Positions 2,224 to 64,000 of a stretch of 64,000 bases of DNA are shown here, piece after piece. Every line of letters begins with the position of its first letter. Positions within the stretch are counted from its first letter, which is position 1. The notes beneath the pieces were generated by a model. The model was not told where the DNA came from. It ran no database searches and was given only the letters and a program-made list of their open reading frames with translations. Made by a program: the position numbers and the translations under genes. The stretch comes from Paratrimastix pyriformis. Taxonomy: Eukaryota; Preaxostyla; Paratrimastigidae. The stretch spans positions 1,343,821 through 1,407,820 of the forward strand of contig JAPMOS010000001.1 of NCBI GenBank assembly GCA_027972325.1, read 5' to 3'.

Positions 2224-4983
<2,760 letters not shown>

Positions 4984-26700: not shown

Positions 26701-28704
26701 TGCCACAGCCACTCATGGGACGGGCACCCGTGTTTGGTTGGCCCCGGGGGGGGCGCTGTTGGGCTGGGCCGGGGCCGGGGCCGGGGTGCAGCCAAGCGGA
26801 CGTGATCGTGTCGGAGCTTCTGGGCAGCTTCGGGGACAACGAGCTCTCGCCCGAGTGCCTCGACGGGGCCCAGCGCTGGATGAAGCCCCGTCCGCCCCGC
26901 CGGCCACACGCCCCCTCCTCGCGCGCCTCGCGCGCCCCTCGCGCGCCCCCACTCCATCATGTGCCGCACCCCGCCCTGCCGCTGGGTGGCCATGGGGCGG
27001 GCGCAGGGACGGGGATCCGCACACGCGCACACGCGCACACGCATACACTCCTCACCTTCCCTTGTCTGGGCGGGCGCAGGGACGGGGATCTGCATCCCGC
27101 GGCGGAGCACCAGCTTCCTGCAGCCCGTGGCCTGCGTGGCCCTCCACCAGGAACTCCTCCACAACCGCGGTCCGCCAACCACGTCCCAGCCCCCAGCCCC
27201 AGCCCCACCGCCCACGGGATGATGTGCCCATCGTCCGAGGCCTGAGACACCCTGGCTGAACGATCGCCTCTCCGTCCCTTGGCGGGTGGATGGGTGGGTC
27301 CCTTGGCGGGTGGGGTCGCAGCGCTTGACGTGACCCGGGCCCCGGGTGCGGGTGTCACCGAGAACTGGGCCGTCTTCGAGACGCCCTACGTGGTGCAGTT
27401 CCACAAGTACGCCGCCCTGGCCCAGCCCCAGCAGGGTCCGTCCGCGGCCCATCATCCATCATCCGCCATCCGTCGTCATCCGCCATCCGCCATCCGCCAT
27501 CCTCCCGGATGGGCCTTGGAGGGGGTTGGCGCCTTCGCCCGTACGGCCCGCGCCCGTGCCCGCGGCGGGGACATGCTCACAGGGCGGGGGGGGGCTATGC
27601 AGTGTTCTCCTTCGAGCACCCCTCACTGGAGGCCCGGGGGCCGCACGACCCCGAGGGCGAGGGCGAGGCGGCTGCCCCGATCGCGAAGGAGCAGCCCGAC
27701 GTGGGGCGGGCCGGGTACCCCATGCCCCCCGCCAACGACCACAACCGCCGCTACACCAGGCTCCGGTTTCCCATCACCGCCGTCCGCCCGGCCCTCCGCC
27801 CGGCCCTCCGCCCGGCCCTCCGCCCGGCCCTCCGCCCGGCCCTCCGCCCGGCCCTCCGCCCGGCCCTCCGCCCCGCCCCGCCCCGCCCCGCCCCGCCCCG
27901 CCCCGCCCCGCCCCGCCCCGCCCCGCCCTGCCCCGCCCTGCCCCGCTCTCCCTCCCGCCCGACGGTTGCTGCTGGCACGGCTGTGGGCTGGGGGGCCATC
28001 TGCAGGCGGGCCGGTGCCACGGGTTTGCGGGCTACTTCGACTGCGACCTGTACGGGGCGGCCCGGCTGTCGACCCACCCCGAGACCCACACGGCCGACAT
28101 GTACTCCTGGTTCCCCATCTACTTCCCCCTCCACGTCCGCCGGTCCCCGTCCCCCTCGCCCCTGCCCGCCCGCCCTCCCGCCCGCCCTCCCACGCTCCCT
28201 CCCGCCGCCCAAGCAGGCTCACTCACCGAGCCCGTCTGGCCGGCCGGACCGTGGGTGCTGATGTGGGTGCTGGTGTGGGTGCTGGTGTGGGTGCTGGTGT
28301 GGGTGCTGGTGTGGGTGCTGGTGTGGGTGCTGGTGTGGGTGCTGGTGTGGGTGCTGGTGTGGGTGCTGGTGTGGGTGCTGGTGTGGGTGCTGGTGTGGGT
28401 TCGCACGCGCAGACGCCCATCGAGGTGCGCGAGGGGACGTCATGGAGGTGCACTTCTGGCGCAACGTGGGGCAGCACAAGGTCCGCACGCCGCCCCTTCT
28501 GCCTCGGCCCGGGGCCCGGGGACGATGGGCTCGTCCGGCTGGGCCCCCGCCGACTCACCGACTCACCGACGGCTCCCGGCCTTGCCCCCCCCCCCCCCCC
28601 CCCCCCCCCCCCGGCTGCAGGTTTGGTACGAGTGGGTGGTCTCGTCGCCCGTGGCGTCGCCCATCCACAACCCGGGGGGCCGCTCCTACTCGGTGGGCAT
28701 GTGA
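23745..28704 (+). CDS. PRMT5: Protein arginine methyltransferase 5 (PRMT5), 14 exons
   Basis: PRMT5 makes symmetric dimethylarginine on histones and Sm proteins. Exons: 23745-24004, 24064-24529, 24691-24807, 25006-25108, 25228-25355, 25519-25669, 26214-26382, 26792-26889, 27080-27169, 27322-27435, 27603-27781, 28006-28134, 28413-28480 and 28621-28704 (TGA). Twelve of 13 introns start GTCTG or GTCCG, the other GTCCC. The TIM-barrel part has 'GLPAFLLPL'-like 'SMPALYLPP' and '[17 protein letters not shown]'. Rossmann motif I is 'IMGAGRGPL'. The double-E loop is '[15 protein letters not shown]', intact. '[14 protein letters not shown]' keeps the substrate-loop region and Phe ('YETFERDP'). The C-terminus is '[11 protein letters not shown]', '[13 protein letters not shown]'. 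Exon 13 is one base short in a G run near 28,431 (the frame of 'VREG' against 'DVMEVHFW'), probably an assembly error. Intron 2 holds a tRNA gene; other introns are satellite-filled. Confidence 0.96.
24582..24653 (+). tRNA. tRNA-Pro (anticodon CGG)
   Basis: A 72-nt cloverleaf: acceptor stem GGCCACT paired with AGTGGCC, discriminator C; D-arm with TTGGTCTAGGGGCATGA (A-box like); anticodon stem CTCGG/CCGAG with loop TTCGGGT, giving CGG at positions 34-36; T-arm GGGGG-TTCGATT-CCCCC (B-box). There is no intron. A T-rich pol III terminator follows (TTTTC about 5 nt after, TTTTT near 24,680). The gene lies in the sense orientation inside PRMT5 intron 2 (24530-24690). Confidence 0.96.
24831..24965 (+). 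repeat. (CACCT/CGCCT)n pentamer array in PRMT5 intron 3
   Basis: About 27 copies of a 5-bp unit, with a few CGCCT variants at the left end and pure CACCT to the right, inside intron 24808-25005. Confidence 0.95.
25993..26152 (+). repeat. (CCCAG)n pentamer array in PRMT5 intron 6
   Basis: About 32 pure copies of a 5-bp unit inside the 544-nt intron 25670-26213. The same intron has a diverged tandem motif (GGATGGCGATG-type, about 25,760-25,845). It produces long repetitive open frames on both strands that are not genes. Confidence 0.95.
26430..26744 (+). repeat. 35-bp minisatellite, 9 copies, PRMT5 intron 7
   Basis: Copies start at 26430, 26465, 26500 and so on to 26710. Each starts CACTCATGGGACGGGCACCC and carries the palindrome ACGGGCACCCGT. 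Copies differ mainly by CCACCG against CCACAG. It fills most of intron 26383-26791. Confidence 0.95.
27784..27950 (+). repeat. 12-bp array passing into (CCCCG)n, PRMT5 intron 11
   Basis: About seven copies of a 12-bp unit (CGCCCGGCCCTC) are followed by about 15 copies of a CCCCG pentamer, in intron 27782-28005. Confidence 0.92.
28258..28400 (+). repeat. 12-bp array (GGGTGCTGGTGT)n, PRMT5 intron 12
   Basis: About 12 copies of a 12-bp unit in intron 28135-28412. Unlike the other intron arrays, it is G/T-rich on the sense strand. Confidence 0.94.
28585..28612 (+). repeat. Poly-C run next to the last PRMT5 acceptor
   Basis: About 28 C residues lie just before the GGCTGCAG acceptor at 28613-28620. 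It could serve as the polypyrimidine tract. Confidence 0.9.
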
Positions 28705-40650: not shown

Positions 40651-41049
40651 GGCCCAGCTTGAGCCACCGGGTTCGTCCGCGGCAAGGCCTTCGAGGGCAG
40701 CTCAGGTCCGGTCAAGCCCCCCATCAGCGGGGATCCCGGTGTCAAGCAACCTTGCAGCGGCCTATGCGGGGCCGGCAGGGAAGGGCCCAGCGCCACCGCA
40801 GGGCATACTGGCCCAGGTGCCTGACCCGGAGCCAGGGTGAGCGGGGACGCACTGGGCCATCCCGCCCACAGTGTCCCAGCAATCCCTCCCCCGGGGGGCG
40901 CTGGCCAGCGTCTGGGCCAGGACCACAGGCCAGGCGAAAAGCCAGGGAAACAGCCAGGGACGGGCCTCGTGGTCGGGTGATGCCAGTTCGGGGGCAACAT
41001 CACAGGCCACCACGGGCAGAGCAGTGCCGCCGGGGCGGGACAGAGAGCA

Positions 41050-42230
41050 CAGGCGGCAACGGCGACCCCACCCGCAGGAGCCCCGGGGACAGCATGGACC
41101 CGGGCGGGCCCACGGCTGCCCCGGCAGACGACGGCCCCGGCAGCGGCGGACCACCTGGCAGTCCCGGCAGCAGTCCCGGTAGCGACAAACGACGGGCCGG
41201 CGGCGCAGCGAGGGCCCGGCCCGCTGTTGGCCCCAGCGCAGCCCCGGGCCCCAGCAAGGCGGACGGCGGCGCAGTCTCAGCGGCCCCGGCGGCTCCGGCG
41301 GCCACGGCGACCCCGGCGGTCACGGCGGCCGGCGCAGGAAGCACCGGTGGGGCGGCCAGCACTCGCGCCACCGGCGGCCACGGCGACACCACCCGCAGGA
41401 GCCCCGGGGACAGCCTGGACCCGGGCGGGCCCACGGCTGCCCCGCAGACGACGGCCCCGGCGGCGGCGGACCACCTGGCAGTCCCGGCAGCGACAAACGA
41501 CGGGCCGGCGGCGCAGCGAGGGCCCGGCCCGCGGTTGGCCCCAGCGCAGCCCCGGGCCCCAGCAAGGCGGACGGCGGCGCAGTCTCGGCGGCCCCGGCGG
41601 CCCCGGCGGCCCCGGCGGCCACGGCGGCCGGCGCAGGAAGCACCGGTGGGGCGGCCAGCACTCGCGCCACCGGCGGCCACGGCGACACCACCCGCAGGAG
41701 CCCCGGGGACAGCCTGGACCCGGGCGGGCCCACGGCTGCCCCGCAGACGACGGCCCCGGCGGCGGCGGACCACCTGGCAGTCCCGGCAGCGACAAACGAC
41801 GGGCCGGCGGCGCAGCGAGGGCCCGGCCCGCGGTTGGCCCCAGCGCAGCCCCGGGCCCCAGCAAGGCGGACGGCGGCGCAGTCTCGGCGGCCCCGGCGGC
41901 CCCGGCGGCCCCGGCGGCCACGGCGGCCGGCGCAGGAAGCACCGGTGGGGCGGCCAGCACTCGCGCCACCGGCGGCCACGGCGACACCACCCGCAGGAGC
42001 CCCGGGGACAGCCTGGACCCGGGCGGGCCCACGGCTGCCCCCCGCAGACGACGGCCCCGGCGGCAGCGGACCACCTGGCAGTCCCGGCAGCGACAAACGA
42101 CGGGCCGGCGGCGCAGCGAGGGCCCGGCCCGCGGTTGGCCCCAGCGCAGCCCCGGGCCCCAGCAAGGCGGTCGGCGGCGCAGTCTCAGCGGCCCCGGCGG
42201 CCCCGGCGGCCACAGCGGATAGAGCAGATT
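41050..42230 (-). repeat. Tandem repeat of 299-bp units, about 4 copies
   Basis: The landmark ACCCGCAGGA (plus strand) recurs at 41070, 41391, 41690 and 41989, so the last spacings are exactly 299 bp and the first 321 bp with an extra segment. Copies are nearly identical, so expansion is recent. 299 is not a multiple of three: each copy shifts frame, and long stop-free frames on both strands simply reflect the GC content. Confidence 0.95.
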
Positions 42231-45173: not shown

Positions 45174-45250
45174 CAGAAAATCAACCGATCGTTCGCGAAT
45201 TCAACCAACAGAACAAAAGCAGCGAGTAGCCGCTATAACCTCCTTTCGGG
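45174..45250. promoter_or_regulatory. Divergent promoter region upstream of archaemetzincin
   Basis: A 77-bp A/T-richer interval between two opposite start codons. No core element is recognised. Confidence 0.4.
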
Positions 45251-46332: not shown

Positions 46333-47592
46333 TCAGAGAGGGGCGACCAGCAGGGGGGCGGCATCAGTAGCAGGTACGGGCGCCTCAGGCACGGGAGCCG
46401 ACGGGGGCAAGGGAGCCGTGCCGGGTGCCGGGTCAGCAGCCGCGGTGGCTGCAGCGGACGGAGGCAGTTGCGTGGCCTCGGGAGTCCCCGTCAGGAGGCA
46501 GCTGAGCGCGTAGAAGTCCTGCTGCCGTTTGACCTCACGCGATGGGGCGGACGATGCCACAGGATCTCCGCTCGAGTCGGTGTAGATGCCGCCTGAAGGA
46601 GTGCGGGTTTGGGGGATGGCCGGTAAGTGAGGCAGAGCAGAGGCAGAGGTCGCGCGGACCGCGACCCTCGAACTCGGGCGAAGTGGCCAGCCGAAGGGAA
46701 GCCTTCGCCCCACGCTTGGTGGTCTTCATCCAGGGTGCCATGAAGGGGTAAGCCATCGGCCAGAGCCAGCATGCGACCCAGGCGGGGACGAACTCTGCGA
46801 GAGATAGACGGGTCAACCATCCGTCTCAGACCTGTGAAGATATTCGAGCGGATGATCCCCGGGTGGCAACAATTCACGGTAACTCCGTGCGGCGAGAGGC
46901 GCCGATTGAGCTCGTAAGTGGCCAAGACCTTGAGGACGGCGCAACAGGGAGGAGCAATGGTTGCGGATGACGATCCGAGAGATAGGCACTGCAGACAACG
47001 GCAAACTTTGAGTGCGCGTACGCTCGCATCATGCCGTATTTGGTTTCGGGCTTGGTGAAGTTGTAATCTTCGAACCCGATGTGCCCACTCGAATGAATGC
47101 GGGACGCAGTGATGACCACACGCGCCGGAGCGCTCGCGATCAGGAGACCCTCCAATTCGCGGATCAAAAGAAAGTGAGAAAGGTAGTTGCACTATGCGAG
47201 GAAGTCGTCAGCTGGAGAGAGAGGGGGGGGACCTGGAAGTGCATCTCGAACTTGTCCTGAGTGAGCTGAGGTTTCGATCCCATGACCATCAAACCAGCAT
47301 TGGCAACGAGCAAATGAACCGCAGAAAATGTGGCCTTGATGTGCCGCGCTGCTTCTCGCACGGAAGAGAATGAGTTGAGATCGAGCCGAACAACCGAAAT
47401 AGTTGCCATCGGGCAGCTTTTGTGAATTGTCTTCACAACATCGTCGGCTTTGGAGATTGAACGCGCTGCGATGATAAGGTTTGCGCCCATGGCTGCCAAC
47501 GAAATGGCCATTTGAAGCCCGATTCCGGAAGTTGCGCCTGTGATCAGTGCATTCTTTCCATGAACAAATGATACCGAACGCTTGCTCTCCAT
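46333..47592 (-). CDS. Short-chain dehydrogenase/reductase, retinol-dehydrogenase-like
   Basis: A classical SDR with an NAD(P)-binding Rossmann fold. Exon 1 (from 47592): 'NALITGATSGIGLQMAISLA' (TGxxxGIG) and 'AARSISKAD' (Arg after the second strand suggests NADP preference), then 'VRLDLNSFSSVRE' and 'HLLVANAGLM' (NAG). The next exons give 'RVVITASRIHSSG' (catalytic Ser), 'YAHSKFA' (YxxxK) and 'VTVNCCHPGIIRSNIF'. The C-terminal exon 'GGIYTDSSGDPV', 'QQDFYALSCLLTG' matches the RDH11-14 pattern. A short Ala/Pro tail ends with TGA at 46333-46335. Introns include one starting near 47,235. The gene is convergent with archaemetzincin and divergent from the WW gene (104 bp). Confidence 0.85.
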
Positions 47593-47696
47593 TGACTCAG
47601 GATGTCAAAGCCGCGGGTGTGCGGAAATCCCTGCAATCAATACAACCTTTTGGGGAATAGTATTAGTCCGGAGAATCCTACGGCGGTCCTTGCCGA
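47593..47696. promoter_or_regulatory. Divergent promoter, SDR and WW-array gene
   Basis: A 104-bp A/T-richer interval between opposite start codons. No TATA box is recognised. Confidence 0.45.
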
Positions 47697-50600
47697 ATGG
47701 AATCGGACCATGCCGCTGATTCGACCCTTCAATCAGAATCAGATGAGGCAGTCCGTCGAAGAATATTGGAGTTTGTTGACTATCTGGACATTGACCCTGC
47801 TGATACTGAACTCTACTGGATCGCGAAGGAATGTTCAGAAGCTCAACTCCCTGAGGGTTGGGTTGAAGAGTCTGAAATATATCTCTGTTTATGGGGCAAA
47901 ATTCTCATTTTTGTTCATCGTTGTCGGGTCTCAGCACCACGGAGGAAGGATTTCGCTTTTTTTTCAACGTGGTCACCGAAGAGACCAGTTGGGAGTCCCC
48001 TGTCGATCAGTATTATCGGCAACTTTACGCATACGAGAAGGAGAAGAAGATCCGTCGCGCGAGTGGACAATCCGAGATCGATCTCTCTCCTCCCTTGGTC
48101 TGGCCACAACCCCCCCTGGATGGGTCAATCTTCACCTTGTGTCTGGCTCCCTGCTGATCCTTTAGAATCCGCTTATCCGTCCTGCCAGCGCCCAGTCGCT
48201 GGAAGTCCGGAGCGGGCCTCCGTCACCACTTTCGATGCGCACCCCCAGTCCCACCCCCTCGCAGCCCTCCAGCACGCCCCCGCTCTTGGCCCTCTCCAAG
48301 ATGGCCGCTGCCGCCAGGGCCACCGGACAGGTTGCGGGGTCGCGTCCACTGGTCGTCGTCTTCTCGCACCGCACCATCCGGGCTCGTCACCGGCGGCTGG
48401 TCAAGCGGGCCCAGGCCCAGGCCCGACGCAGACTGCGCCAGCCCGGCCAGGGAGCGCCTCCCGATCGGAGAGAGAGGAATCCCTCTGCTGGCCTCGTGAC
48501 GGCGACCGCCACAGAGACCATCACTCCATCTCCGGCGGGAAACTCTGCTACAGCAACGGCCGCCCTACCACAGCCGCACAGGCCCTCCACAGCCAAGCCG
48601 TCCCATATGCGGCCTGAGTCCCGCTTGGGCACACCCAACAGTCCTAACCGGCCCCGCCGCGCTTCTTCCCGAGCCAATACGCCACAAATGGCGCCACCAG
48701 CCCCAGACCTTGAGACCGTGGCGCCGCTGGGGCCCCCGACAGCGCCGCCTGTGGAACCTTCAGGTTCACCAGCAGCGTCGCCCGCGGGGATGGCGAGTGC
48801 CTTGCCAATGCCGGCAACCCCGCACTCCTCTGCAGAGCCCCCGCCGCCGGCCCCCACCATGCCCGGCCCAAGCGCTCCCTTGGTGGGTGCCCCAGAAGGG
48901 GTTGAGACGGACGAGCAGAAGCAAGGTCTGCCAGCCTCAGGGGCCGGATGGACGGGTGTTCATCGCGCTTCTGCCGACAGAAACCCTTCAGTTCGTGGAG
49001 TACCTGGAGATGGACCCGGCCGACAGGGACCTGTACTGGATCGCCCGGCAGTGCTCCCAGGCAGACCTGCCCGAGGGCTGGATCGAAGGGTCTGCCCCCA
49101 CCGTCGCCCTGGACATCCACGCCTCATCACTCCTTGCCACCCACCCCGGGTGCAGTGTCGACGCCGCCGGGACGCGCTTCTTCACCAACGTTGCCACGGG
49201 GCAGACCAGCTGGGAGTCGCCCGTCGACCAGTACTACCGCCAGCTGTACGCCTTCGAGAAGCAGAAGAAGCAACGCCGTGCGGCGGGCCTCCCCGAAGAC
49301 CCCGCGGCCAAGCCACCAACGGTCCGCATTGAGGATATCGTTGTCCATCCCACTCATTGCCACCGTGCAGAATCCCTTCCGAGGTGGCGCGCCCGTCGAG
49401 CGGAAAGAGAAGCCCGACCCCTCCAGCACCCCTGCCGAAACGGCGACCGATGGGCCTTCCCAACCTCAAGCAGTGTCATCTGGTGTCCCTGCCCCCAGTC
49501 AGCCACAGCCACAGCCACAGCCACAGCCACAGCCACAGCGCACCGGACAGCAAAACGACAGCGTCGTGGCCATGGGCGGCTCGGCGGCCGATGTTGCTGC
49601 CCTCTTCGCTGGTGCGGCGGCTACCGTCAAGCTGATCATCGACATTCAGCGGCCCGCAGAGCAGCGGTCGCATCCAGGGCTCGTTTTGGGGCCTCCGGGT
49701 ACCACTTTGTCGGGGCTCCCGCAATCCGTCCCGCCCGTGGCTGCGGCCCCCATACAGCCCAAGACGCCACGCGCTGGTGAGCGGGGCAGGGCCGGGAGCG
49801 TATCACCCGCCGGATCCGAGGCGGCCCCCCGGGTGCAGGAGGCCCCCGCAGAGGGCCGCGACTCGAAGAACGGTCTGCCCCCACCCACCACCACCATTTC
49901 TGAGATCGAGGTGCGATCCATTCCCGCGGGCGGGCGGGCGGGCGGGCTGGGAATGGTGGTGGTGGTGTGTGTGTATGTGTGTATGCGTGTGTGGCCGGCT
50001 GCTGGGCATTGGCTCCAAAACCCTCTCCACCTCGATCTCTGACACTGTCCTGCGCTGCAGTTACTGGATCTTCCTGTCCCGGGGCGACCAAGTGTGGACC
50101 CCATGGGCGATCCATCTGTAACTCAGCTGCCTGTCCTGACCCGTGTCCCTTGTCCCCTGTCCTGTCCTGTCCCGTCCCCATGCTCGTCCCGTCCCTTGGC
50201 TTTGCTCGTCCCGTCCTGTGGTGGTGTGTGGCCGGGGGGGATCCCCCGGAGGTGGTGGCACTGCCCCTAGCGCTCCGATCAGTAGGCTCATTCTGGGTGC
50301 CACTACACTTTCCGGATCCACTCCCCGTCTCGTGGGGATGGACCGTTTTCTTTCTTCTTCCTGTCCCTACTTCTGCTCCCCCCCACACTCTCCACACCCC
50401 GGCCCCGCCCCGTCCCGTCCCGTCCCGTCCGTCCCGTTCTTCACCGTGCCCCTCTGTGCTACGTGCGGCCTGTCCTGGTCGTGCTGCCCCTACGTCCCGT
50501 CCCTGGTGCGCCGTCCCGTCCCGACCCGTCCCGTTCGTTGCCGTCCCGTCCCGTCCGTCGTCGATGCTCGCCATCGACATTCTACTTGCGCACCCAATCG

Positions 50601-53600
50601 AAAAGGTCTGTGTCATATGCTCCGATTGCCCCTTGTCTTGCCTGTGTCGGGGACCCCCTTTGGCGCGACACATGCTGCTGCCGTGCGATGTGGTGAGAGC
50701 GTGAGCTGTCCATCCACACCATGTGACGGATCCCTTGTGGGTCCTGATTTCCGGTCTCGGATGTTGACGTGCTCTTCCGCCTGAGCGCTTTGCCGTTGAC
50801 TGACCCTTGTTCGCTGCCGCCTGCTTGCGTATGTTGGCTTGGTGGACACTGCTTGACTATGGCGCTTCCCTCGTGGACTGTGCCTACATTTCTTGCGGTG
50901 TCTCTCTTCCCTCTTTGTGTGTGGGTGGGGGGGCGGGTCTGTCACCGGGTCTCAACGCGACGTCTCCTCGACAGAGGACATGCTGGACTTTGTCGAGTAC
51001 CTCGAGATGGACCCGGCCGACACGGACCTGTACTGGATCGCCCGCGAGTGCGCCGAGTCCGACCTACCGCCAGGCTGGGTCGAAGAGTCCGTCTGGCGGC
51101 CCGCACGACTCCACTCCCACCATTTTTTCTGTCTGCCGCAGGACGACAACCACGGGGGCACGCTTCTTCACCCATGCGGCCACGGGGCAGACCAGCTGGG
51201 AGTCGCCCGTCGACCAGTACTACCGCCAGCTGTACGCCTTCGAGAAGCAGAAGAAGCAACGCCGTGCGGCGGGCCTCCCCATGGGCAGCCTGACCGCGCC
51301 CCAAAATCCCTTCGTTATCAAGGAACCCGGGGCGGAGGAGACGGTCACCAAGCCGCCGCCGCCGGACAGCCCCCAGCCCTCCAGAAACTCGCTCGTGCAG
51401 CCAAGCTCGGCCTCCACCACTAGGACAGGAGGCACAGCCTCGGGGGTGGCCTCGTTGCCCCCGCTGGCCCCGGCAGGGGGCGAGCAGACCGGACGCACAG
51501 GGGATGCCCCAGCCGCGCCTCCTGTGACCCACCAGCCACTCTCCCCGAGCGGTCAGCCGAGTGGGCAGCCAGCCGCTGGGGCGCCCGTTGGCTTGGCAGG
51601 AGACCGGCAGGAGCAGGAGCAGGAGCAGGATGACCGTCTGTCGGGACGGCGGTCTTCCTGACTCATCGGCCCTTCGCCCCGAGTTGCTGTTTGGCCCTCG
51701 GCGGTATTGTACTTGCTGCTCACTCCTCCCTCCCGCCCGTCCCATGTCCCTCTGTTCCCACCCGCACAGACACGCTGGAGTTTGTCGAGTACCTGGAGAT
51801 GGACCCGGCCGACAGGGACCTGTACTGGATCGCCCGGCGGTGCTCCCAGGCTGAATTACCAGACGGCTGGGAGGAGGGCGCGACCGAGGACGGGACGCGC
51901 TTCTTCACCCATGCGGCCACGGGGCAGACCAGCTGGGAGTCGCCCGTCGACCAGTACTACCGCCAGCTGTACGCCTTCGAGAAGCAGAAGAAGCAACGCC
52001 GTGCGGCGGGCCTCCCCGAGGACTCCACCGCCAGGCCGCCCGCGGTCTGCCTGCCTCCGCGCTGTCACCAAAAAGCCCACCCACGGGCCGCTCCCTTGTG
52101 CAGGACATTTTCCACGTGGTGTCCGCTGCCGCGCCGCCTGCCTCGGCCCCGTTGCCGGTTGCTGAGGCGCCACCTGGTGCCGCCGTTCTGGTGGCCCCGG
52201 CGAGCGCGACCAGTCCTTCCGGCGCTGCTGCTACTGCTGCTGCTGCTGCTCCCACTGAGGCGGCTTCTTCCTCGGCGGCCATCGCCCCTCCTGTAGAGGC
52301 TCCGGTGGCTGTAGCCTCCATCCCTGCCCCCTCTCTCGCCCCCACATCGGCATCAGCAGCCCCAGTGGCGGCCAGTAGCCCCACAGACGCGGCCGCTGCT
52401 TTGTCCGGTGCCACTTCTGCTCCGGTCCCTGCCGCCGCAGGCACTGCCACTGTCAACGCCGTCATCCCTTCTGCCGCCGCCGTCGCTACCACTGTCATTG
52501 CTGCCGCCACAGGCAGCGGAGCCGTCGGGCTGCGGGAAGTGGAGGCAGGGCCCGCGGGTACACAGGCCACAACAAGTGCAGCCACTGTGGGGCCGTCCGG
52601 GGCGCCGCGACCCGAAGACGAGCCGCCCGAAGACGACGAGCAGCGCAAACGTCCGTGGGTGCCACCTGGTTTCGTTTCGACTTCATCGTGTTCTCATCTC
52701 CCGACCCGCCATTCGACCGCCCGCCCGCCACGCACACCTCTTTTGCCGGTTGCAGACACGCTGGAGTTTGTCGAGTACCTGGAGATGGACCCGGCCGACA
52801 AGGACCTGTATTGGATCGCCCGGCAGTGCTCCCAGGCCGAGCTGCCGGCCGGGTGGGAGGAGGGCACGACCGAGGACGGGACGCGCTTCTTCACCCAGGC
52901 GGCCACGGGGCAGACCAGCTGGGAGTCGCCCGTCGACCAGTACTACCGCCAGTTGTACGCCTTCGAGAAGCAGAAGAAGCAACGCCGTGCGGCGGGCCTC
53001 CCCGAGGACCCCGCGGCCCAACCACCTGCGGTCTGCCTCCCTCCCACTTCACCAGCAACCCCCCCACTCACGGGCCGCTCCCTTGTGCAGGACATTTTCC
53101 ACGTGGGACCCACTGCTGCGCCGCCTGCCCCGGCCCCGTTGCCGATTGCTGAGGCGCCACCTGGTGCCATTGCCTTCGTCGCCCCTGCAAGCGCGGCCGA
53201 CCTTCCCGCCGGGGCCGCCACGGTTGGTGCAGCTGCTGGCGTGGCGGCTTCTTCCTCGGCAGCCGTCGCCCCTTCGGTCGAGGCTCCGGTGGCTGTCGCC
53301 TCCGTCCCTGCCCCCTCGACCACCTTTGCAGTGGCAGCAGCAGCAGCCCCATCAGTCACCCTGTCGGCTACCGAAACGCCCGCTGCTCCGGCCGGCGCCA
53401 CTCCTGCAGCCACCACCACTGTCACTGCCCCCGCGGCCGTCATCTCCACAGGCAGTGGCGCTATTGGGCTGCCCGACATGCGAGCAGGGCCCGCAACTGC
53501 ACAGGCTGCCGCAGCGGCTGCCCCCGTGACCGTCGGGCCGGTCGGGGCGCCGCGACTCGAGGACGAGCCGCCCGAGGACGATGAGCAGCGCAAACGTCCG

Positions 53601-56600
53601 TGCCTTCTCGCTCGCTGCCCGAACCCTGCCTGGTTTCGCTTCGGTATCTTCTCGGCTTCCCTGGTGCTCATCGACCCTCTCGCCCGCCCGCCTCTCACAT
53701 CGCGCCGACAGACACACTGGAGTTTGTCGAGTACCTGGAGATGGACCCGGCCGACAAGGACCTGTACTGGATCGCCCGGCAGTGCTCCCAGGCCGAGCTG
53801 CGGGCCGGCTGGGAGGAGGGCGCGACCGAGGACGGGACGCGCTTCTTCACCCATGCGGCCACGGGGCAGACCAGCTGGGAGTCGCCCGTCGACCAGTACT
53901 ACCGCCAGCTGTACGCCTTCGAGAAGCAGAAGAAGCAACGCCGTGCGGCGGGCCTCCCCGAGGACTCCACCGCCAGGCCTCCCGCGGTCTGTCCGGCAGA
54001 GTTTTCTGTGTACGACGGTCTGCCGCTTTGACTGTAGGACATTTTCCATGTGGCATCTTTGCCCGCCGCTCCCACGGCCACGGCCACCCCCGCCACGGCC
54101 ACCCCCGCCATTGCCACTCCCGCCACCGCCACTCCTGCAACCGCCACTCCCGCCACTCCTGCAACCGCCACTCCTGCAACCGCCACTCCTGCAACGGCTA
54201 CCGCCACTCCTGACGCTGCCTCCGTTCCCAACGCGCCCCTTGAGATTTGCCCTGCTGTCTCGCCAGACTCGGGGCAGCCCCAGCCCCCTGTGCCGCCCGC
54301 CCAGAGTGGCGCCGCCCTTCCGGATGCGGAGCAGCGCAAACGTCTGCCGCCTGCCTGAAGTCCCCCGCTTTCCGCTCACTGGGCGGCACCGCTGTCACCG
54401 CTTTCTCCAATCGCTGCGGCGAGGCTCATGTGCTACCCTTCCCCCTTCTCCCTTCCACCTCCCCTCTGCTCCTTCAGGCATGCTGGACTTTGTCGAGTAC
54501 CTGGAGATGGACCCGGCTGACACGGACTTGTACTGGATCGCCCAGCAGTGCTCCCAAACCGACCTGCCCGAGGGCTGGGTCGAAAAGTCCGGCAGGCGCA
54601 ACCCAGCAGTGCTTCCTTCCGCCCTCTCCCCCTCCTCCTCCAAGACGTCATGACGTGCAACAAGGTCTTCCTTCATGGTCCCACTCCATCTCCCTTCTCT
54701 CTCGTCGCAGCGGGGCCGGGGACGGGACGCACTACTTCTACAACGCGGTCACCGAGGAGACCAGCTGGGAGTCGCCCGTCGACCAGTACTACCGCCAGCT
54801 GTACGCCTTCGAGAAGCAGAAGAAGCAACGCCGTGCAGCGGGCCTCCCCGAGGACCCCGCCGCGCACCCGCCAAAGAATCCCTTCAATGGCAACCACGCA
54901 CGTTCCCCTCATGCCCCTGGCGCGGGCAGCCCCCCACCCGCACCGGCCCCACAGGCTGTGCCCACCCAGGAGGCGACCCCGCCCCCAGTGGCCGACAGCC
55001 CCCGTGCGGTTTCCGAGGCCACCAAACGTCTGTTTGGGCCTGACAGCCGCCCCCCGCACCGTCCTGCATGTACTCACCTTTCGTCTCCATCTGCGGCCCC
55101 ACAGACACCCTCGAGTTCGTCGAGTACCTGGAGATGGATCCGGCCGACACGGATCTGTACTGGATCGCCCGCTCGTGCGCCGAGGCGGAGCTGCCGCCTG
55201 GATGGGAGGAGGAGTCCGTCTGCTTGGGTGGCCGTTCGCCCCCATCCATTCGTTGCCTTGCCATGGTCATGGGCGGCCATTCTGACGGTCTCCTTGTGCC
55301 GGTGCTGTCTGGGCCACTCTGCGGGCGGGTAGGATGTCCAAGGACGGGACGCGCTTCTTCACCCATGCGGCCACAGGGCAGACCAGCTGGGAGTCGCCCG
55401 TCGATCAGTACTACCGCCAGCTGTACGCCTTCGAGAAGCAGAAGAAGCAACGCCTTGCGATGGGCCTCCCCGAAGACCCCGCGGCCAAGCCACCGAAGGT
55501 CCGTCTCGCGCCCCGCCAAGTTGCTTGCGATTGCCGCGTCCTGATGATGGTTGGTATGGGCGCTCCCGTTCTCACGACGCCGCCTTCACTTGTTCGCGCA
55601 GAGTCCCTACGACCCAGTCCCGACGACCAGCCCGGTTGGGCTGCAGCCGCAACCCGAGGGGCCCCAGCCCGCCCGCCAGCCTGAGGCGGTGATGGCCCAG
55701 CCCGAGGTCCCCATGCCAACCCGGACCTCTCCGGTCGTCGCCGCCCCACGGTCGGGGGCGTCGTCTCGGGTCGGAGGCGGTCTCCCGATGGAAGCGGGGG
55801 TTTTGGGACAGCTGAGCCCGGCCGCCGTGACGGCTGCCTGCACGCCGGGGGCCGTGGTGCCGCTCTTCGCGGGGGCCGTGGCCGCTGTCCGGGTGCCACC
55901 CGCACTCCTGCCGGCACCCTCGCAGCAGCCCCAGCACACAGTCCAGACTCAACCGCCCATTCCTCCCGGAGCCATGCCGCCCCTCGCCGCCGCCGCGGAC
56001 ATCTCGGCGCAGCCGGCACAGCCCCCGCTCCATCCGCCAGGCTCGGCGTCACCTGCGGGGTGGCAGCGGGCAGAGGACGGGGAGGACGAGAACCAGAGGA
56101 AACGTCTGCCGACGCCCGGCTCACCTGCATGATCCCCCATGTCCCGCCGCCGGTCCCACGCAGGTCCCATGCAGTGAGACATGAGCTCATCCTGTTTGTT
56201 TCCCGGTTTTACCGGTTGCAGACACGCTGGAGTTTGTCGAGTACCTGGAGATGGACCCGGCCGACAGGGACCTGTACTGGATCGCCCGGCGGTGCTCCCA
56301 GGCTGAATTACCAGACGGCTGGGAGGAGGGCGCGACCGAGGACGGGACGCGCTTCTTCACCCAGGCGGCCACGGGGCAGACCAGCTGGGAGTCGCCCGTC
56401 GACCAGTACTACCGCCAGCTGTACGCCTTCGAGAAGCAGAAGAAGCAACGCCGTGCGGCGGGCCTCCCCGAGGACCCCGCGGCCCAACCACCTGCGGTCT
56501 GCCTCCCTCCGCGCTGTCACCAGCAACCCCCCCACTCACGGGCCGCTCCCTTGTGCAGGACATTTTCCACGTGGGACCCACTGCTGCGCCGCCTGCCCCG

Positions 56601-59600
56601 GCCCCGTCGCCGGTTGCTGAGGCGCCACCTAGTCCCATTGCCTTCGTTGCCCCTGCAAGCGCGGCCGACCTTCCCGCCGGGGCCGCCTCGGTTGCTGGGT
56701 CGCCATTTGCCACCACCTCTGCGTCCCTCCTCGCCCCTGCAAGCTCGGCCAGTCTGCCCGTCGGGGCCGCCACGATTGGTGCTGCTGCTGTTGGTGGCGA
56801 GGCGGCCTGTCCCTCGGCCACTATTCCAACTATTCCAATCGGGTCTCCGACGGCTGTGGATCCCGCCTCCTTCGTCGCCGGAGTGACATCACCAGTTGCC
56901 CTCCGCTCGGCCAGCGCCCACACAGACACGACCGTGGCTCCGGTCGTCAGCTCTTCCACCATCGGCACCTCAGGCACTGTCGAGCTGCCGGCGGAGGCCG
57001 GGCCCGCAAGAACGCAGACTGCAGCAGCGGCAACAGCTATCGCCGGGCCAGTCGGGGCGGTCGGGGTGGCGCCGCAACCCGAGGACGAGCCGCCCGAGGA
57101 CGAGGAGCAGCGCAAACGTCTGTGCGACCCCTGCCTGGCTCGGTTCTTCGTGTTTTCCATCTTCCCTCCGGTCGACGACCCTCCCGCCACACACCGTTCG
57201 TTTCTCCTTTGTCTGCTTTAGACACGCTGGAGTTTGTCGAGTACCTGGAGATGGACCCGGCCGACAGGGACCTGTACTGGATCGCCCGGCAGTGCTCCCA
57301 GGCCGAGCTGCCGGCCGGGTGGGAGGAGGGCGCGACCGAGGACGGGACGCGCTTCTTCACCCAGGCGGCCACGGGGCAGACCAGCTGGGAGTCGCCCGTC
57401 GACCAGTACTACCGCCAGCTGTACGCCTTCGAGAAGCAGAAGAAGCAACGCCGTGCAGCGGGCCTCCCCGAGGACTCCACCGCCAGGCCGCCCGCGGTCT
57501 GTCAGCTGCCAGAGGAGCGCGCCTTCATCCGGCTGCTCACATTGTTTTTGTTCTTTCTGTCCTCCCTTCCCCGTTCAGGACATTTTCCACGTGGGCCCCG
57601 CTGACTTGCCGGTCGCATCCGTCTCGGCCCTTGGTGCGGCGCCCCCTGCCTCGGTTCCTGCTTCTGGTGCTGCCGCTCCTCCACCTGCTGCTCCCGGCGC
57701 GCCCCTTTCACTTGTTGCCCGTCCCGACACGGCCGGGCCCGGCGCCACGTCTGCGAGCGCCAGTGCCACCACCAACGTCACCACGGCCTCCGGAGGCGCG
57801 ACGGCGGGCGCAGCGGTTGTGATGGGGGCCGTTGGGGCTCCGCACCCCGAGGACGAGCCCGAGGACGAAGAGCAGCGCAAACGTCTGTGTCCCGTTTGGT
57901 CGAGGTGTGGTCTCCACATCACTCCCGTCCTCGTCCCGCTCCCCATCGATGACCTTTCTGTTGTGCCTCTCACACGCCACACACCCCGTTGTTCCCACCC
58001 GCACAGACACGCTGGCGTTTGTCGAGTACCTGGAGATGGACCCGGCCGACAGGGACCTGTACTGGATCGCCCGGCGGTGCTCCCAGGCTGAATTACCAGA
58101 CGGCTGGGAGGAGGGCGCGACCGAGGACGGGACGCGCTTCTTCACCCAGGCGGCCACGGGGCAGACCAGCTGGGAGTCGCCCGTCGACCAGTACTACCGC
58201 CAGTTGTACGCCTTCGAGAAGCAGAAGAAGCAACGCCGTGCGGCGGGCCTCCCCGAGGACCCCGCGGCCCAACCACCTGCGGTCTGCCTGCCTCCCCACT
58301 TCACCAGCAACCCCACTCACGCGCCCTCCTTCTTTCCCCGTCCATTGACATTGGCGCCTGCCCAGGACATTTTCCATGTGGTGTCCGCCGCTGCGCCGCT
58401 TGTCTTGGGCCCGTCACCGGCCGCCGGGCAGCCACCTGTCGTTATCCCTGCGCCCCTCGTCGCCCCGTCAACCGCGATCAGTCATTCCGTCGTTGCTGCT
58501 GCTGCTCCGACTGAAGCGGCTTCTCCCTCGGCGGCCATCACTGCTCCTGTCGAGGCTCCGGTGGCAGTAGCCTCCATCCCTGCCCCCTCGGTCACCGCCG
58601 CACCGGCAACAGCAGCCTCAGTGGCGGCCAGCCACACAGCCACGACCGCTGCTTTGGCCGGTGCCACTTCTGCCACCACCACCTCCCTGATTCCGGTCCC
58701 TGCCGCTGCTGACATCACCATCGTCAATGCCGCTGCTGCCCCCGCTGCCATATCCGCCGTGGCAACCGCCGTCACTCCCACGACCACTGTCACTGCCTCA
58801 GCAGCGGTTGCTCTTGTGGGGCCGGTCGAGACGCGCCCCGAGGACGAGCCGCCCGAGGACGAGGAGCAGCGCAAACGTCTGTGGGTCCCACTCGCGCCTG
58901 GGTTCCCTTCCGTGTTCTCATCTTCCCTTTTGTCGTATCTACCGCCCGCCCGCCCGCCAAACACCGTTCGTTTCTCCTTTGCCGGTTGCAGACACGCTGG
59001 AGTTTGTCGAGTACCTGGAGATGGACCCGGCCGACAGGGACCTGTACTGGATCGCCCGGCAGTGCTCCCAGGCTGAATTACCAGACGGCTGGGAGGAGGG
59101 CGCGACCGAGGACGGGACGCGCTTCTTCACCCAGGCGGCCACGGGACAGACCAGCTGGGAGTCGCCCGTCGACCAGTACTACCGCCAGCTGTACGCCTTC
59201 GAGAAGCAGAAGAAGCAACGCCTTGCGGCGGGCCTCCCCGAGGACCCCGCGGCCCAACCACCTGCGGTCTGCCTTTCTCGCCTCCCTCTCGGCTGATCCC
59301 TTCATTCTCTGACCGCGTCACGTAGGACATCTTCCACCCTGTGGCCCCCGCCCAGCCCGCCTTGGCGTCGTCATCGATTCCCGTCCAGCCCGCCCCCGCC
59401 CCCGCCTCACCGACCTCCCCTCAGTCGTCGTCCTTGGCTGCGCCCACTGGCGGCGCCATTCACTTGACTCCCCTGCCGCCTCTTCTCGGGCCCGCCATCC
59501 CCACACCCGCCGCCCCTTCGCTTGCTCTGGCCCGCTCCCCGCCGAGCCCCGGCCCATCGACCCGGACGGCAGCCGGGATGGGCCTCGACAGCACCGAGGG

Positions 59601-62600
59601 TGGCAGTCCGGCCCCCCCGCCACAGGTCCCCGAGCGGCCCCAGTTCTTCTTCCGGGCCGACCTCCCCCGCCCCGGCGCCCGGCTCATCCAGCTGGAGACC
59701 CTCGACCCCGAGTCCCGCAACCGTCCGTGCCACCCCATCATGCGTCCACCCTTCCTGCCTTCTGCCTTCGTCCTTCCTCCACCCACTCATGGCATCGCCG
59801 CCTCGGATGGTCTCGCTTGGCCTGAGCAGAGATCCTGCAGTTTGTCGAGTACCTGGACATGGACCCGGCCGACACGGACCTGTACTGGATCGCCCAGCAG
59901 TGCTCCCAGGCCGACATGCCGCCCGGATGGGTCGAAGAGTCCGCCAAGCCGCCCCTCCGCTGCCTCTCTGCCTGCCTGGGCCTGGGCCCGGGCCTGGCAT
60001 GGTGGGTCTCACCGCATCTTCTCTTCTGCCTGCCGCTCGGTCGGGATCTTCTAGCGAGGGCCCCGATGGGACGCGCTTCTTCTGCCACATCCTCACCGGG
60101 CAGACCAGCTGGGAGTCGCCCGTCGACCAGTACTACCGCCAGCTGTACGCCTTCGAGAAGCAGAAGAAGCAACGCCTTGCGGCGGGCCTCCCCGAAGACC
60201 CCGCGGCCCGTCCGCCCACGGTCCGCCCTCCTCGCCGCCCCCCACCAGAGCAGTGCCAGAAGATCCGCTCACCTCATCCCGGCGTGCCCACGGACATGCG
60301 CAGGACCCGATGGGCCGCTCCTCGAGCACCCAGTCGCTCTTCTCCGGGCGCCATACTGCCGCCGGGGTGGAGGCGCCCCCGAGCCCGACACCATCGGAGC
60401 CGGGCCCGCCCCCGGCCCTGCTGGACGAGGGCGCGGGAAACACCGGAGAGCCGGTCCGGCAGCACCGTGCCGTGGGGGTCCGCCGCCGTGCGCTGGTGGC
60501 CCGGGTCCAGACCCAGGCCCTCCGCGAGCGCCGCCGGGCCGCCCAGGCACGCGCTGCGGGCGGTCCCGCCTGGCTCGCGATGGCCATCCCTCCCCCCCGC
60601 TCACGCAGCGCCATCCTGCCCTCAGCCACTGCCACCGCAAGCGCACCGGCTGTCCCGCCTGCCGCAACGTTTGCCGCCCTGCCTCCGTCGGCCTCTCCGC
60701 CGGCCGTCGCCCAAGCCCAACAGGCGGACCAGACGGCCAACCCGTTTTGGGGCGCCCTTGCTTCTGTGGGCCCTCCCCGCCACTCGCCCCGCCGCCTCCC
60801 CGCGGCGCCAGCCACCGCTTCCCCCTGCCCACAGCCCCCACCCTCCGTGGTCTCTCCTCCCGCTGCCAGTGGCTGCGTCCCGGCCGAGGTCCCTTCTCCC
60901 ACCCCCCCGGCCCCCGGCGCGGCGCTCACGACGCCACCCCAACCCCCATCCACCCCGGCCCCATTGGCGCCACCGCCATTACTCCCATCCCCGCCTGCAC
61001 TGGCCGGGGGTGCGCGCCTTCTTCCCCCGCCGCCGACGGGCGCCCCATCCGCAGCCGGTACCGACCTGCCCTTGGTCCTCGCAGCCGCGCCCGCCAGCCC
61101 CTCGGCTGCAGCTGCCGTCCTTGCAGATGCGGCCCCGTCGCCCCCCGCCACCCCCCCGCCTCCCACTGTCCTCCTTGCTGCACCCGCACCCTCGGTTGCC
61201 AGGCCGGGCCCGCAATCACAGGAGGCGACGCCCCCGCAGACCTCCCCGTCCGCGCTTCTCGCGACTCCGGCGGCCCAAGGCCCCCTCGAACTCCCTGCCC
61301 GCACGGAGGCGGCCCTCACCTCAGCCCCCGAGGCGGCAGCAGTCACATCGGTCCCCGCGCCCCAGGCCCCGGCGCCCCAGGCCCCCGCGCCCCAGGCCCC
61401 CGCGCCGGCCGCCCTCCTGCTGGAGCCGCCCGCCCATGCGGCGGATGCTGCCCTGACTGGAACTGGCACCCTGATCGTGTTGGCTGCCCCAACGGCCGTC
61501 CCCTCGACCTATTCACCGGTCACCCAAACTGCTGCTGCGCCGGTCGGGGCAGCGGCCGTGGTGGAGGCCATCCCGGCAACCACCATGCCAGTCGGCGCCA
61601 CAACGGAGACACTGGCAGCTGTCCCCGCCGTCGGCGCCCCGGATGTCACTGCGGAGGGCGCGGCCACCCCCGCGGCTCCCACGCTGGCGGATGCCTCCCC
61701 GCTCTCCATTGCGCAGGCCACCCCGCCGACAGTCACCACCGCACCGGCAGGCACGGCCAGCCCAGCAACGACAGTCACCCCAACAGAGGCTCGCGCGACA
61801 AGCGCCGCCGCAGCAGTTGCTGTTGAGGCATCCTCCCCGCCTGGCGTAGCCACCCCCCTGGAGGCGACAACTTCGGCAGCAGCCACCCCGGCAGCCGCAA
61901 CAACGACGCTGGCCCTCGACGCCGGGGCCGCAGTTTCTGCAGCTGCAGAGGCAGCCACCCCGGCAGAAGCCACCGTGGAGATCACGGCTGCAGAAGTTGT
62001 TGAGGCAGCGGCAGCCCCGATCGCAGCGGTTGGAATCACCACGGCAGCGATCACTGCGGCAACAAAACCCCCGGATTTCACCGCTCCGGCGGCAGCAGCC
62101 AGCTCGGTGGCAGCCAGCTCGGTGGCAGCCAGCTCGGTGGCAGCCAGCTCGGTGGCAGCCAGCTCGGTGGCAGCCAGCTCGGCGGCAGCAACCCCAGCAG
62201 CAGTGGTTGCAGAGGTCGCCACCCTGGCGGTAGTAACCACCGTGACGGCACCAACCCGGGCGCCAGTGGAGATCGCCCAGGCACCAGCGGAGGTCGCCCA
62301 GGCACCAGCGGAGGTCGCCCAGGCACCAGCGGAGATCGCCCAGGCACCAGCGGAGGTCGCCCAGGCACCAGCGGAGGTCGCCCAGGCACCAGCGGAGGTC
62401 GCCCAGGCACCAGCGGAGGTCGCCCAGGCACCAGCGGAGGTCGCCCAGGCACCAGCGGAGGTCGCGCCGGTACCCGCGAAAGTCGCCACCACACCAGCGG
62501 AGGTCGCCCCGGCACCAACCACGGCAGGCACCATAACAACCACGGGAGCAGCCGCGACCACCACAACGGCAGCAACAGAGGTCGCCCTGGCGGCAGTGGT

Positions 62601-64000
62601 AGCCGCCCCGGCACCAGCGGAGGTTGTCATAGCAGCAGTCGAGATCGCCCCTGCTGCAGCCACCATGGCAGCAATGGAGGTTGCCTCGGCAGGAGCAGCA
62701 GCCACGGCGGCATCGGATACAGCAGCCGCCCCGGCGCCAGCCGCCCCGGCGCCAGCCGCCCCGGCGCCAGCCGCCCCGGCGCCAGCCGCCCCGGCGCCAG
62801 CCGCCCCGGCGCCAGCCGCCCCGGCGCCAGCCGCCCCGGCGCCAGCCGCCCCGGCGCCAGCCGCCCCGGCGCCAGCCGCCCCGGCGCCAGCCGCCCAGCC
62901 GCCGTTCACCTCCCAGGCGCCGCCAGCCACCCAGGCGCCAGCCTCCCAGGCGCCAGCCGCCCCGGCGCCAGCCTCCCAGGCGCCAGCCGCCCCGGCGCCA
63001 CCCTCCCAGGCGCCACCCTCCCAGGCGCCACCCTCCCAGGCGCCACCCTCCCAGGCGCCAGTGGATGTCGCCCCGGCAACAGCCGCTATGCCAGCAATGG
63101 GGTCCCTGTCCGGATTGGCTGTCACCCCAGTGGTTGCGGCTGTCAGCCCGGACGCCGCATCGGCGGCCCAAGCGATCGCTCTGGAGGCCACCCCAACAGT
63201 CGCGGCCCCCCCGGCCGCAGCAGCAGGCTGGCTCCCGCCGGCCGCTTCCAGGACCCAGTGCGGGCCGGCCGTGGTCGAGGCAGCGAGTGCACCCGTCCAG
63301 GTTGCTGCCCAATCTGAGACGCAGGGGCCCGCCGAGGCTGCCCCCATCTCGGCTGGCGCGCCAGCCAGGGCCACCCAAACTTGGGCCGCAGCAGAGGTGC
63401 TGGCGGCTGACATGTCCGCGCTGCCGCCCCAGCCGGACCCAGGTGCCTCCGCCCCCGCTGTCGGGGCCCCGGCCCCGTGCCCAAGTCCTGCCCCGCCTCC
63501 CGCTCGCACCCCTGCGCTGACTCTGGCCCCGAGCGAGGCCGCCCTGCCCCCCGAGACCCTCGTCGGGCCGGCCGTCGCCCCCGAGGTGGCCTCGGTGGGC
63601 TCTCTCGGCCCAGCCGCCGGGACCTTGGGAATCTCCCCCCGTGGACCGGTGGTACCCGCGCTCGCCCCCTCCCTGAAGATGGCCGCCCTGCAGACGGTGA
63701 CGGAGGTGGCGGCGCCTGTCCCTGCCGCGCCGCTTCCCGCCAAACTCATCTGCGGGGAGCTCGAGGACACCACACCCAGCACCCAATCTGCCGGCACCCG
63801 GGGGCCGCTCCTCTTCGCTGGCCCCGTCGGTGCTGCTCTGGCATCCTCGGCCCCCGCCCTGGCCTGCCCCGCTGATGGCCCCTGTTGCGGCCCCTGTTGC
63901 GGCCCCTGTTGCGGCCCCTGTTGCGGCCCCTGCCACGGCCCCTGCCACGCCGCCCGTATCTGCCACTCTCCCGGCTCTCCCTCTTGTGTCCGCTGGGGCT
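47697..64000 (+). CDS. Giant protein with 13 CEP164-type WW modules, at least 30 exons, runs off the window end
   Basis: Exon ends: 47697-47869, 47935-48097, 48166-48925, 48981-49089, 49156-49321, 49371-49872, 50974-51086, 51142-51635, 51770-52044, 52104-52650, 52756-53030, 53091-53595, 53712-53986, 54038-54341, 54478-54586, 54711-55027, 55105-55213, 55333-55498, 55602-56103, 56222-56496, 56559-57117, 57222-57496, 57579-57882, 58007-58281, 58366-58876, 58992-59266, 59326-59722, 59830-59938, 60055-60219, 60304->64000. All 29 donors are GTCTG or GTCCG. Exons 1-29 sum to 9,009 nt (3,003 codons) and stay open throughout. Each module has a helical part '[18 protein letters not shown]', a WW domain 'LPxGWEE' to 'TSWESPV', and '[16 protein letters not shown]'. 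The closest family I know is the CEP164 N-terminal WW region (distal appendages of basal bodies). Linkers are Pro/Ala/Thr-rich. The last exon is a 1,200-residue low-complexity tail. Confidence 0.88.
47763..48080 (+). repeat. WW module 1 (split, most diverged)
   Basis: Split by intron 47870-47934. It has '[18 protein letters not shown]' and '[16 protein letters not shown]'. It sits in the less GC-rich 5' part of the gene and differs most from the others, so it may be the oldest. Confidence 0.85.
48981..49321 (+). repeat. WW module 2 (split, 109 + 166 nt)
   Basis: Intron 49090-49155 separates the helical half from the WW half. The following exon starts with 'NPF' and includes a (PQ)n run from (CACAGC)n near 49,503. 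Confidence 0.88.
49873..50973 (+). other. Longest intron of the WW gene (1.1 kb), no nested gene seen
   Basis: This intron lies between exons 6 and 7. It contains a GT-rich stretch (49,955-49,995) and long tracts of CGTCC/TGTCC pentamers (50,150-50,215 and 50,400-50,560). Open frames on both strands are repeat-derived. No tRNA or other RNA gene is recognised. Confidence 0.6.
50974..51280 (+). repeat. WW module 3 (split)
   Basis: Intron 51087-51141 splits it. It continues without an intron into an 'NPFVIKEPG' linker that ends in a Gln/Glu/Asp run. Confidence 0.88.
51770..52044 (+). repeat. WW module 4 (unsplit, 275 nt)
   Basis: One 275-nt exon. Reads '[17 protein letters not shown]'. The upstream intron end CCCACCCGCACAG is shared with module 11. 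Confidence 0.9.
52756..53030 (+). repeat. WW module 5 (unsplit, 275 nt)
   Basis: Reads '[14 protein letters not shown]' and 'LPAGWEEGT'. The linker exon before it ends '[13 protein letters not shown]', a signature repeated before modules 5, 6, 10 and 12. Confidence 0.9.
53712..53986 (+). repeat. WW module 6 (unsplit, 275 nt)
   Basis: Near-identical to module 5, but 'LRAGWEEG' replaces the Pro of 'LPxGW'. The next linker is short, with (CCGCCAC)-type Ala/Thr repeats. Confidence 0.9.
54478..54880 (+). repeat. WW module 7 (split)
   Basis: Intron 54587-54710 splits it. The WW half reads '[19 protein letters not shown]', closer to module 1 than to the unsplit copies. Confidence 0.88.
55105..55498 (+). 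repeat. WW module 8 (split, 109 + 166 nt)
   Basis: Intron 55214-55332 splits it. Reads '[18 protein letters not shown]'. Sequence after the WW is '[13 protein letters not shown]'. Confidence 0.88.
56222..56496 (+). repeat. WW module 9 (unsplit, 275 nt)
   Basis: Nearly identical at DNA level to modules 4 and 11 ('[16 protein letters not shown]'). The following intron and '[11 protein letters not shown]' linker copy those after module 5. Confidence 0.9.
57222..57496 (+). repeat. WW module 10 (unsplit, 275 nt)
   Basis: Reads '[16 protein letters not shown]', like module 5. Confidence 0.9.
58007..58281 (+). repeat. WW module 11 (unsplit, 275 nt)
   Basis: As module 4 except 'LAFVEYL' for 'LEFVEYL'. 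Confidence 0.9.
58992..59266 (+). repeat. WW module 12 (unsplit, 275 nt)
   Basis: Mixed type: '[16 protein letters not shown]' and '[13 protein letters not shown]'. The upstream intron ends TTTGCCGGTTGCAG, as before module 5. Confidence 0.9.
59830..60219 (+). repeat. WW module 13 (split, 109 + 165 nt)
   Basis: Intron 59939-60054 splits it. Reads '[20 protein letters not shown]' and '[15 protein letters not shown]'. It is the last module; only low-complexity sequence follows. Confidence 0.88.
62094..62180 (+). repeat. 15-bp coding repeat (AASSV)n
   Basis: About six copies of a 15-bp unit in the last exon of the WW gene, in frame, encoding Ala-Ala-Ser-Ser-Val. Confidence 0.9.
62269..62465 (+). 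repeat. 21-bp coding repeat (EVAQAPA)n
   Basis: About nine copies of a 21-bp unit encoding seven residues, with Val/Ile variation. All copies stay in the exon frame. Confidence 0.9.
62728..62892 (+). repeat. 15-bp coding repeat (AAPAP)n
   Basis: About 11 near-pure copies, then related [10 protein letters not shown] units to about 63,060. The period is a multiple of three, unlike the intron arrays. Confidence 0.9.
63867..63950 (+). repeat. 12-bp repeat at the window end, reading frame doubtful
   Basis: Units of CCCCTGTTGCGG read Gly-Pro-Cys-Cys in the exon frame but Ala-Pro-Val-Ala one frame over, which fits the rest of the tail better. A one-base error in the CCCC at about 63,867 would explain this. 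Confidence 0.7.

Follow-up and report, generated by a model that had tools for sequence, protein, structure and literature searches.

In animals, CEP164 carries one N-terminal module that recruits TTBK2 at the distal appendages. The module of human CEP164 (PDB 7nwj, 7o06, 7o0s and 7o3b) has the order helix-helix-WW-helix, its N-terminal beta-hairpin (D10, Q11) completes the binding pocket, and the protein has a long C-terminal coiled coil. In a study of human CEP164, Y73 and W84 form a first proline groove (XP) and F75 and F77 a second (XP2); the substitutions Y73A, F77A and W84A cut TTBK2 binding strongly and F75A moderately; the dissociation constant of the N-terminal domain for a TTBK2 peptide is ~60 uM; and the authors suggest that self-interaction aids this weak binding through avidity (PMC8752127). 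Here we describe a 64,000-nucleotide stretch of the genome of Paratrimastix pyriformis (contig JAPMOS010000001.1, positions 1,343,821 to 1,407,820; the window), the last part of which encodes thirteen tandem modules of this type in what appears to be a single giant gene. Human CEP164 thus has one module and the array has thirteen, and in place of the coiled coil the 4,177 residues that could be read have Ala/Pro-rich linkers. Tandem-WW proteins (NEDD4, Itch, KIBRA, MAGI and YAP) likewise hold several WW domains per chain, but they match over the WW region and not over the first two helices, whereas the modules of the array stand 60–262 residues apart.

The first-pass annotation of this DNA had claimed thirteen tandem modules of about 90 residues, and the count holds. 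In a six-frame search with three fuzzy motifs, those for the helix, the WW domain and the third helix ('YYRQLYAFEKQKK') were each found thirteen times on the forward strand and never on the reverse strand, all within 47,772–60,169. The modules (M1–M13) are 82–91 residues long and align without a gap over 82 residues in 13 of 13 cases; the motif YYRQLYAFEKQKK is exact in twelve and reads YYRQLYAYEKEKK in M1, the most divergent copy. The conserved unit therefore includes both helical parts and is not the WW domain alone, as it is in proteins of the NEDD4/KIBRA/YAP type. A search of the assembly (56.06 Mb, 495 contigs) with one module gave at least 22 matches, 19 of them in the array (seven whole modules and twelve halves) and three elsewhere.

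Several lines of evidence place the module with CEP164. Among the best 60 of 96 rows in a sequence comparison with PDB, whole-length matches were to CEP164 chains only (positions 2–71), and the best stretch of chains of the NEDD4/KIBRA/YAP kind covered no more than about 45 of 76 positions. The secondary structure predicted for M5 consists of helices at residues 2–8, 15–26 and 58–78 and strands at 33–37, 43–47 and 52–54, and Foldseek ranked CEP164 first to fifth with the predicted fold; some of the lower, multi-domain rows (among the best 50 of 472) aligned over 51–90 columns at a root-mean-square deviation of 4–18. The Pfam WW domain (PF00397) matched all seven modules scanned at E <= 1, with M1 at 36.1 bits; in four frames, three matches lay above the cut-off of 26.9 and one at 26.8. 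An NCBIfam scan gave a single match, below threshold, to a bacterial ferredoxin-subunit model. Each of the thirteen modules can be aligned over its full extent with human CEP164, at 26–33% identity, and at 38–54% with three further loci of the same genome; the equivalents of human W48, W62, W84, P87, Y92 and R93 are kept in every one. By sequence, profile and predicted fold, the module is a CEP164 N-terminal domain, with a WW domain inserted in a three-helix bundle. The CEP164-type assignment made in the first-pass annotation is thereby supported, both by the structure comparison it had proposed and by a profile search, which placed the module with CEP164 and not with another WW family.

No relative of the array itself was found in limited searches. 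A protein search with a 91-residue query (proteins of ~50–160 residues) returned no candidate, and one with a 1,360-residue query scored on M2 (proteins of ~750–2,380 residues) returned 52 candidates, of which not one reached E <= 0.01. An orthologue of giant size, above 2,380 residues, would fall outside these ranges. A limited literature search likewise found no paper on a protein with this architecture. The earlier statement that no such protein has been described thus agrees with what was found within these size ranges and this literature. If our reading is true, no natural array of the CEP164 domain would have been known before this one, as far as these searches reach.

The grooves of the modules are unequally preserved. 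Every one of the thirteen modules has F or Y at residue 73 and W at residue 84, so the XP pair is intact. In XP2, eleven modules carry T or C at residue 75 (F in M1, Y in M7), and at residue 77 the thirteen have A, V or I. Because 73 and 84 are kept and 75 and 77 are changed, a proline-binding groove is probably present, and the TTBK2-type second pocket is, judging from these residues, not kept. F77 is not general among protist relatives, since residue 77 is H, A and T in the three other loci of this genome and H in a protein of Palpitomonas. M1 has a 24-residue tail ahead of the aligned domain. No proline-free run of 60 residues or more occurs in the 4,177 residues read (the gene ends beyond the window), and the giant protein has no coiled coil in this part. 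We considered whether the modules bind their own linkers through PPxY or PPLP motifs and rejected this, as the twelve linkers contain none of either. NPF, a candidate ligand of EH domains, occurs at the start of three linkers and once in exon 30.

We favor, with a probability of about 0.58, the hypothesis that the locus is a single giant gene for a mostly disordered, Ala/Pro-rich protein whose thirteen CEP164-type domains derive from a CEP164-family paralogue and form a flexible, multivalent scaffold for proline-rich peptides. The array would have arisen from such a paralogue by repeated duplication of a module exon together with a linker exon, with the splice phases kept. Having retained the first-groove residues, each module may bind proline-rich peptides weakly, perhaps at tens of micromolar as in human CEP164, and many weak modules together could engage, through avidity, either a single partner whose motifs recur or a partner present in many copies. 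The scaffold role is a sound inference because every module keeps the first proline-groove residues. Its site may be the basal body or another microtubule centre; the basal-body location is a guess from the relationship to CEP164, and recruitment of TTBK2 by the array is putative only, the second TTBK2-binding pocket (F75, F77) not being kept.

The gene model was built by hand. An automatic prediction with our own program had been set aside, as it split the region, skipped M1 and removed Ala-rich linkers as introns; its place was taken by a hand-built model in which the modules serve as anchors. This model has 30 exons, all on the forward strand, and runs from the ATG at 47,697, a start codon correctly called in the first-pass annotation, to 63,825, giving an uninterrupted reading of 4,177 residues. 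The claim of one frame open through 30 exons therefore stands for the spliced reading and fails for the DNA, where the modules are spread over all three forward frames. The 29 donors are GTCTG (19) or GTCCG (10), a form that accounts for 50 of the 625 GT dinucleotides in the region, and the acceptors end in CAG (23) or TAG (6). Entry phases recur, with helix exons entered in phase 1, WW exons in phase 2 and linker exons in phase 0. As the boundaries were picked with knowledge of modules, phase and GTCYG, the agreement of donors and phases is a consistency check and not an independent test. Similarly, the ten free-standing linker exons (304–760 nt) all have lengths of 1 mod 3, a regularity that is not independent since the boundaries were picked to agree in phase and the copies are of common descent. 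Both ends of linker exons 10, 12, 14, 21, 23 and 25 are fixed by copies of the same flanks. A single gene and one mRNA are what we infer from homology and phase.

Six modules are split, their WW domain being interrupted by an intron at an identical phase-2 site, and seven are fused into a single exon of 275 nt each, in which the helix and WW exons are joined. The N-terminal module, M1, is split (47,697–47,869 and 47,935–48,097) and is followed by linker exon 3, which is Pro/Ser/Ala-rich and starts NPL (48,166–48,925). M2 is also split (48,981–49,089 and 49,156–49,321); linker exon 6 (49,371–49,872) starts NPF, and beyond an intron of 1,102 nt comes the split M3 (50,975–51,086 and 51,142–51,635), with a linker containing NPF in the same exon. 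Then follow three fused modules, M4 (51,770–52,044), M5 (52,756–53,030; used for the fold prediction) and M6 (53,712–53,986), trailed respectively by linker exons 10 (DIFHV...EDEPPEDDEQRK; 52,104–52,650), 12 (53,091–53,595) and 14 (Ala-Thr-Pro repeats; 54,038–54,341). M7 is split (54,478–54,586 and 54,711–55,027), again with a same-exon linker containing NPF, as is M8 (55,105–55,213 and 55,333–55,498), which precedes linker exon 19 (55,602–56,103). The fused modules M9 (56,222–56,496), M10 (57,222–57,496), M11 (58,007–58,281) and M12 (58,992–59,266) alternate with linker exons 21 (56,559–57,117), 23 (57,579–57,882), 25 (58,366–58,876) and 27 (DIFHPVAPAQ...; 59,326–59,722), and the split M13 (59,830–59,938 and 60,055–60,220) is the last of the series.

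Exon 30 (60,304–63,825) encodes 1,174 residues, of which 32% are Ala and 19% Pro, and these include short peptides repeated in tandem. Its 3' end and that of the gene are unsettled because the Pro/Ala-rich coding signal shifts forward frame between ~63.7 and 64.0 kb and runs to ~65.9 kb, beyond the window. On the same strand, an open frame 2.8–5.6 kb past the window end (L009:2787-5594) encodes kelch repeats (PF24681, E 1.6e-43), which could be either the C-terminus of the giant protein or the next gene.

The introns of this genome seem to open with GTCYG, whereas the usual intron start is GTRAG. All 29 donors of the manual model, with its hand-chosen boundaries, have this form, as do those of 105 of the 178 introns called by a predictor that trained itself from uniform starting donors, its codon table having come from a run seeded with GTCYG. 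These donors make the U1 RNA of the organism worth reading.

DNA comparison suggests how the array grew. It lists 23 duplicated blocks of 282–574 bp, 79–99% identical and in some cases including introns and linker starts; one example, of 488 bp at 95.5%, pairs the M5 unit with the M9 unit. Among M2, M3, M7, M8 and M13, DNA identity is 95% in the third-helix part (96% at third codon positions), 83% in the helix part and 64% in the WW middle. Growth probably proceeded by duplication of exon pairs, with a single fusion of the two exons of a module preceding the spread of the 275-nt exon, and with gene conversion acting locally. Among the seven fused modules, the median nonsynonymous (dN) and synonymous (dS) divergences are 0.016 and 0.10 (ratio 0.16); they are 0.123 and 0.252 (0.49) for fused against split modules and 0.144 and 0.313 (0.46) within the split set, and M1 differs from the other twelve at a median dN of 0.235 with dS mostly saturated. 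On these medians, the fused copies and M1 are clearly under constraint and the remaining modules moderately so.

The three other loci of this genome encode one CEP164-type module each. At C38 (L011), whose frame matches CEP164 at 54.3 bits, the module is followed by a 291-residue proline-free stretch with heptad-like spacing, the heptad figures being the best of seven registers and without a control. C457 (L012) has one module at 45.5 bits. The first match at C146 (L013) was weak (E 9e-5) and became a full module after joining across an intron whose position and phase within the WW domain are those seen in the split modules of the array; a Pro/Ala/Thr-rich open frame follows. C38 and C457 are without the WW intron. 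A protein search with the C38 frame gave three matches among 202 candidates, one of them a WW protein of Palpitomonas bilix; the other two are multi-WW proteins, with Pfam numbers that are presumably those of ankyrin repeats, and covered only 31% and 21% of the query. Because its single module continues into a coiled-coil-like stretch, C38 looks a better candidate than the giant gene for a conventional CEP164. In a small tree, the thirteen modules split with support 100 from C38, C457, C146, Palpitomonas and human CEP164, on the strength of which the array is read as having expanded within this lineage; branch support inside the array is 33–92, and gene conversion may mislead the tree there. 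Trypanosoma brucei offers a parallel in having several non-identical CEP164 proteins (CEP164A/B/C) in one flagellate, comparable with the four loci with CEP164-type modules here; the passage that describes them does not mention arrays (PMC7833213).

The preferred reading has to be weighed against several others. The modules may have stopped binding ligands and be no more than folded beads that act as spacers along an extended structural protein, their high identity being maintained by gene conversion. The altered second groove (residue 75 in 11 of 13, residue 77 in 13 of 13) would fit this, as would the pattern of homogenization, in which the ligand-facing middle is the least conserved part; yet the XP pair is intact in every module, and M1 keeps its median dN of 0.235 at mostly saturated dS. 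We regard this explanation as unlikely. Somewhat less likely still is that there are two or more adjacent genes (e.g., M1–M2 and M3–M13) or a partly dead tandem array. What weighs here against a single gene is the intron before M3, the weakest join of the model at 1,102 nt versus 49–136 nt for the other 28. In addition, our predictor returned three genes, at 48,808–50,121 (M2), 50,980–62,602 (M3–M13, starting at an ATG) and 62,674–66,726, and omitted M1; when made to read the region as one gene, it once more passed over most of M1; and the GC content at third codon positions is 0.55 in M1 as against 0.88–0.95 in the other modules. On the other hand, the 30 exons of the manual model are free of stops and match in phase at all 29 junctions, including that between the GTCTG donor of linker 6 and the acceptor of M3. 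The error to which the single-gene model is most prone is a missed break between M2 and M3, and even with such a break eleven modules would stay in one predicted gene.

We consider it very improbable that the protein belongs with generic WW-repeat proteins such as NEDD4, KIBRA or YAP and is unrelated to CEP164, for it shares several WW domains per chain with these but differs from them in the coverage, Foldseek ranking and end-to-end alignments given above. An assembly artefact multiplying one module is the least credible explanation of all: tandem repeats are prone to mis-assembly, but the units here differ, the listed blocks being only 79–99% identical with distinct linkers and introns, and M1, M2, M3, M7, M8 and M13 are unlike at many residues. 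A more specific form of the scaffold hypothesis, which we put forward tentatively, is that the distal-appendage adaptor CEP164 was turned into a thirteen-valent hub, a proline-peptide "velcro" at the flagellar base or a microtubule centre with changed ligand specificity, working beside a conventional CEP164. The basal-body and TTBK2 part of our reading is weakened by the more conventional CEP164 candidate at C38, the changed second pocket and the lack of a long proline-free run in the giant protein.

A natural thirteen-copy version is a ready-made test of the avidity idea for the CEP164 domain. The array could also serve as a probe for proline-rich CEP164 partners outside animals, where TTBK2 may be absent; the passage on T. 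brucei reports that no TTBK2 orthologue was found there (PMC7833213). Furthermore, it illustrates how a gene can evolve by duplicating exon pairs while their phase is preserved, by fusing two exons and by homogenizing copies locally.

Elsewhere in the window, a reverse-strand match to short-chain dehydrogenases (47,164–47,601; PF00106, E 1.7e-20) is divergent from the start of the giant gene, and a forward-strand open frame at 45,239–46,210 matches peptidase M54 (archaemetzincin; E 1.6e-9). A 299-bp tandem repeat at 41,048–42,218 has 3.8 copies with 95% matches, 299 not being a multiple of three. Near-perfect arrays of CTCTG (38 copies; 3,531–3,720) and GCCCA (33 copies; 25,992–26,154) are also present, along with nine copies of a 35-mer at 99% matches (26,417–26,731).
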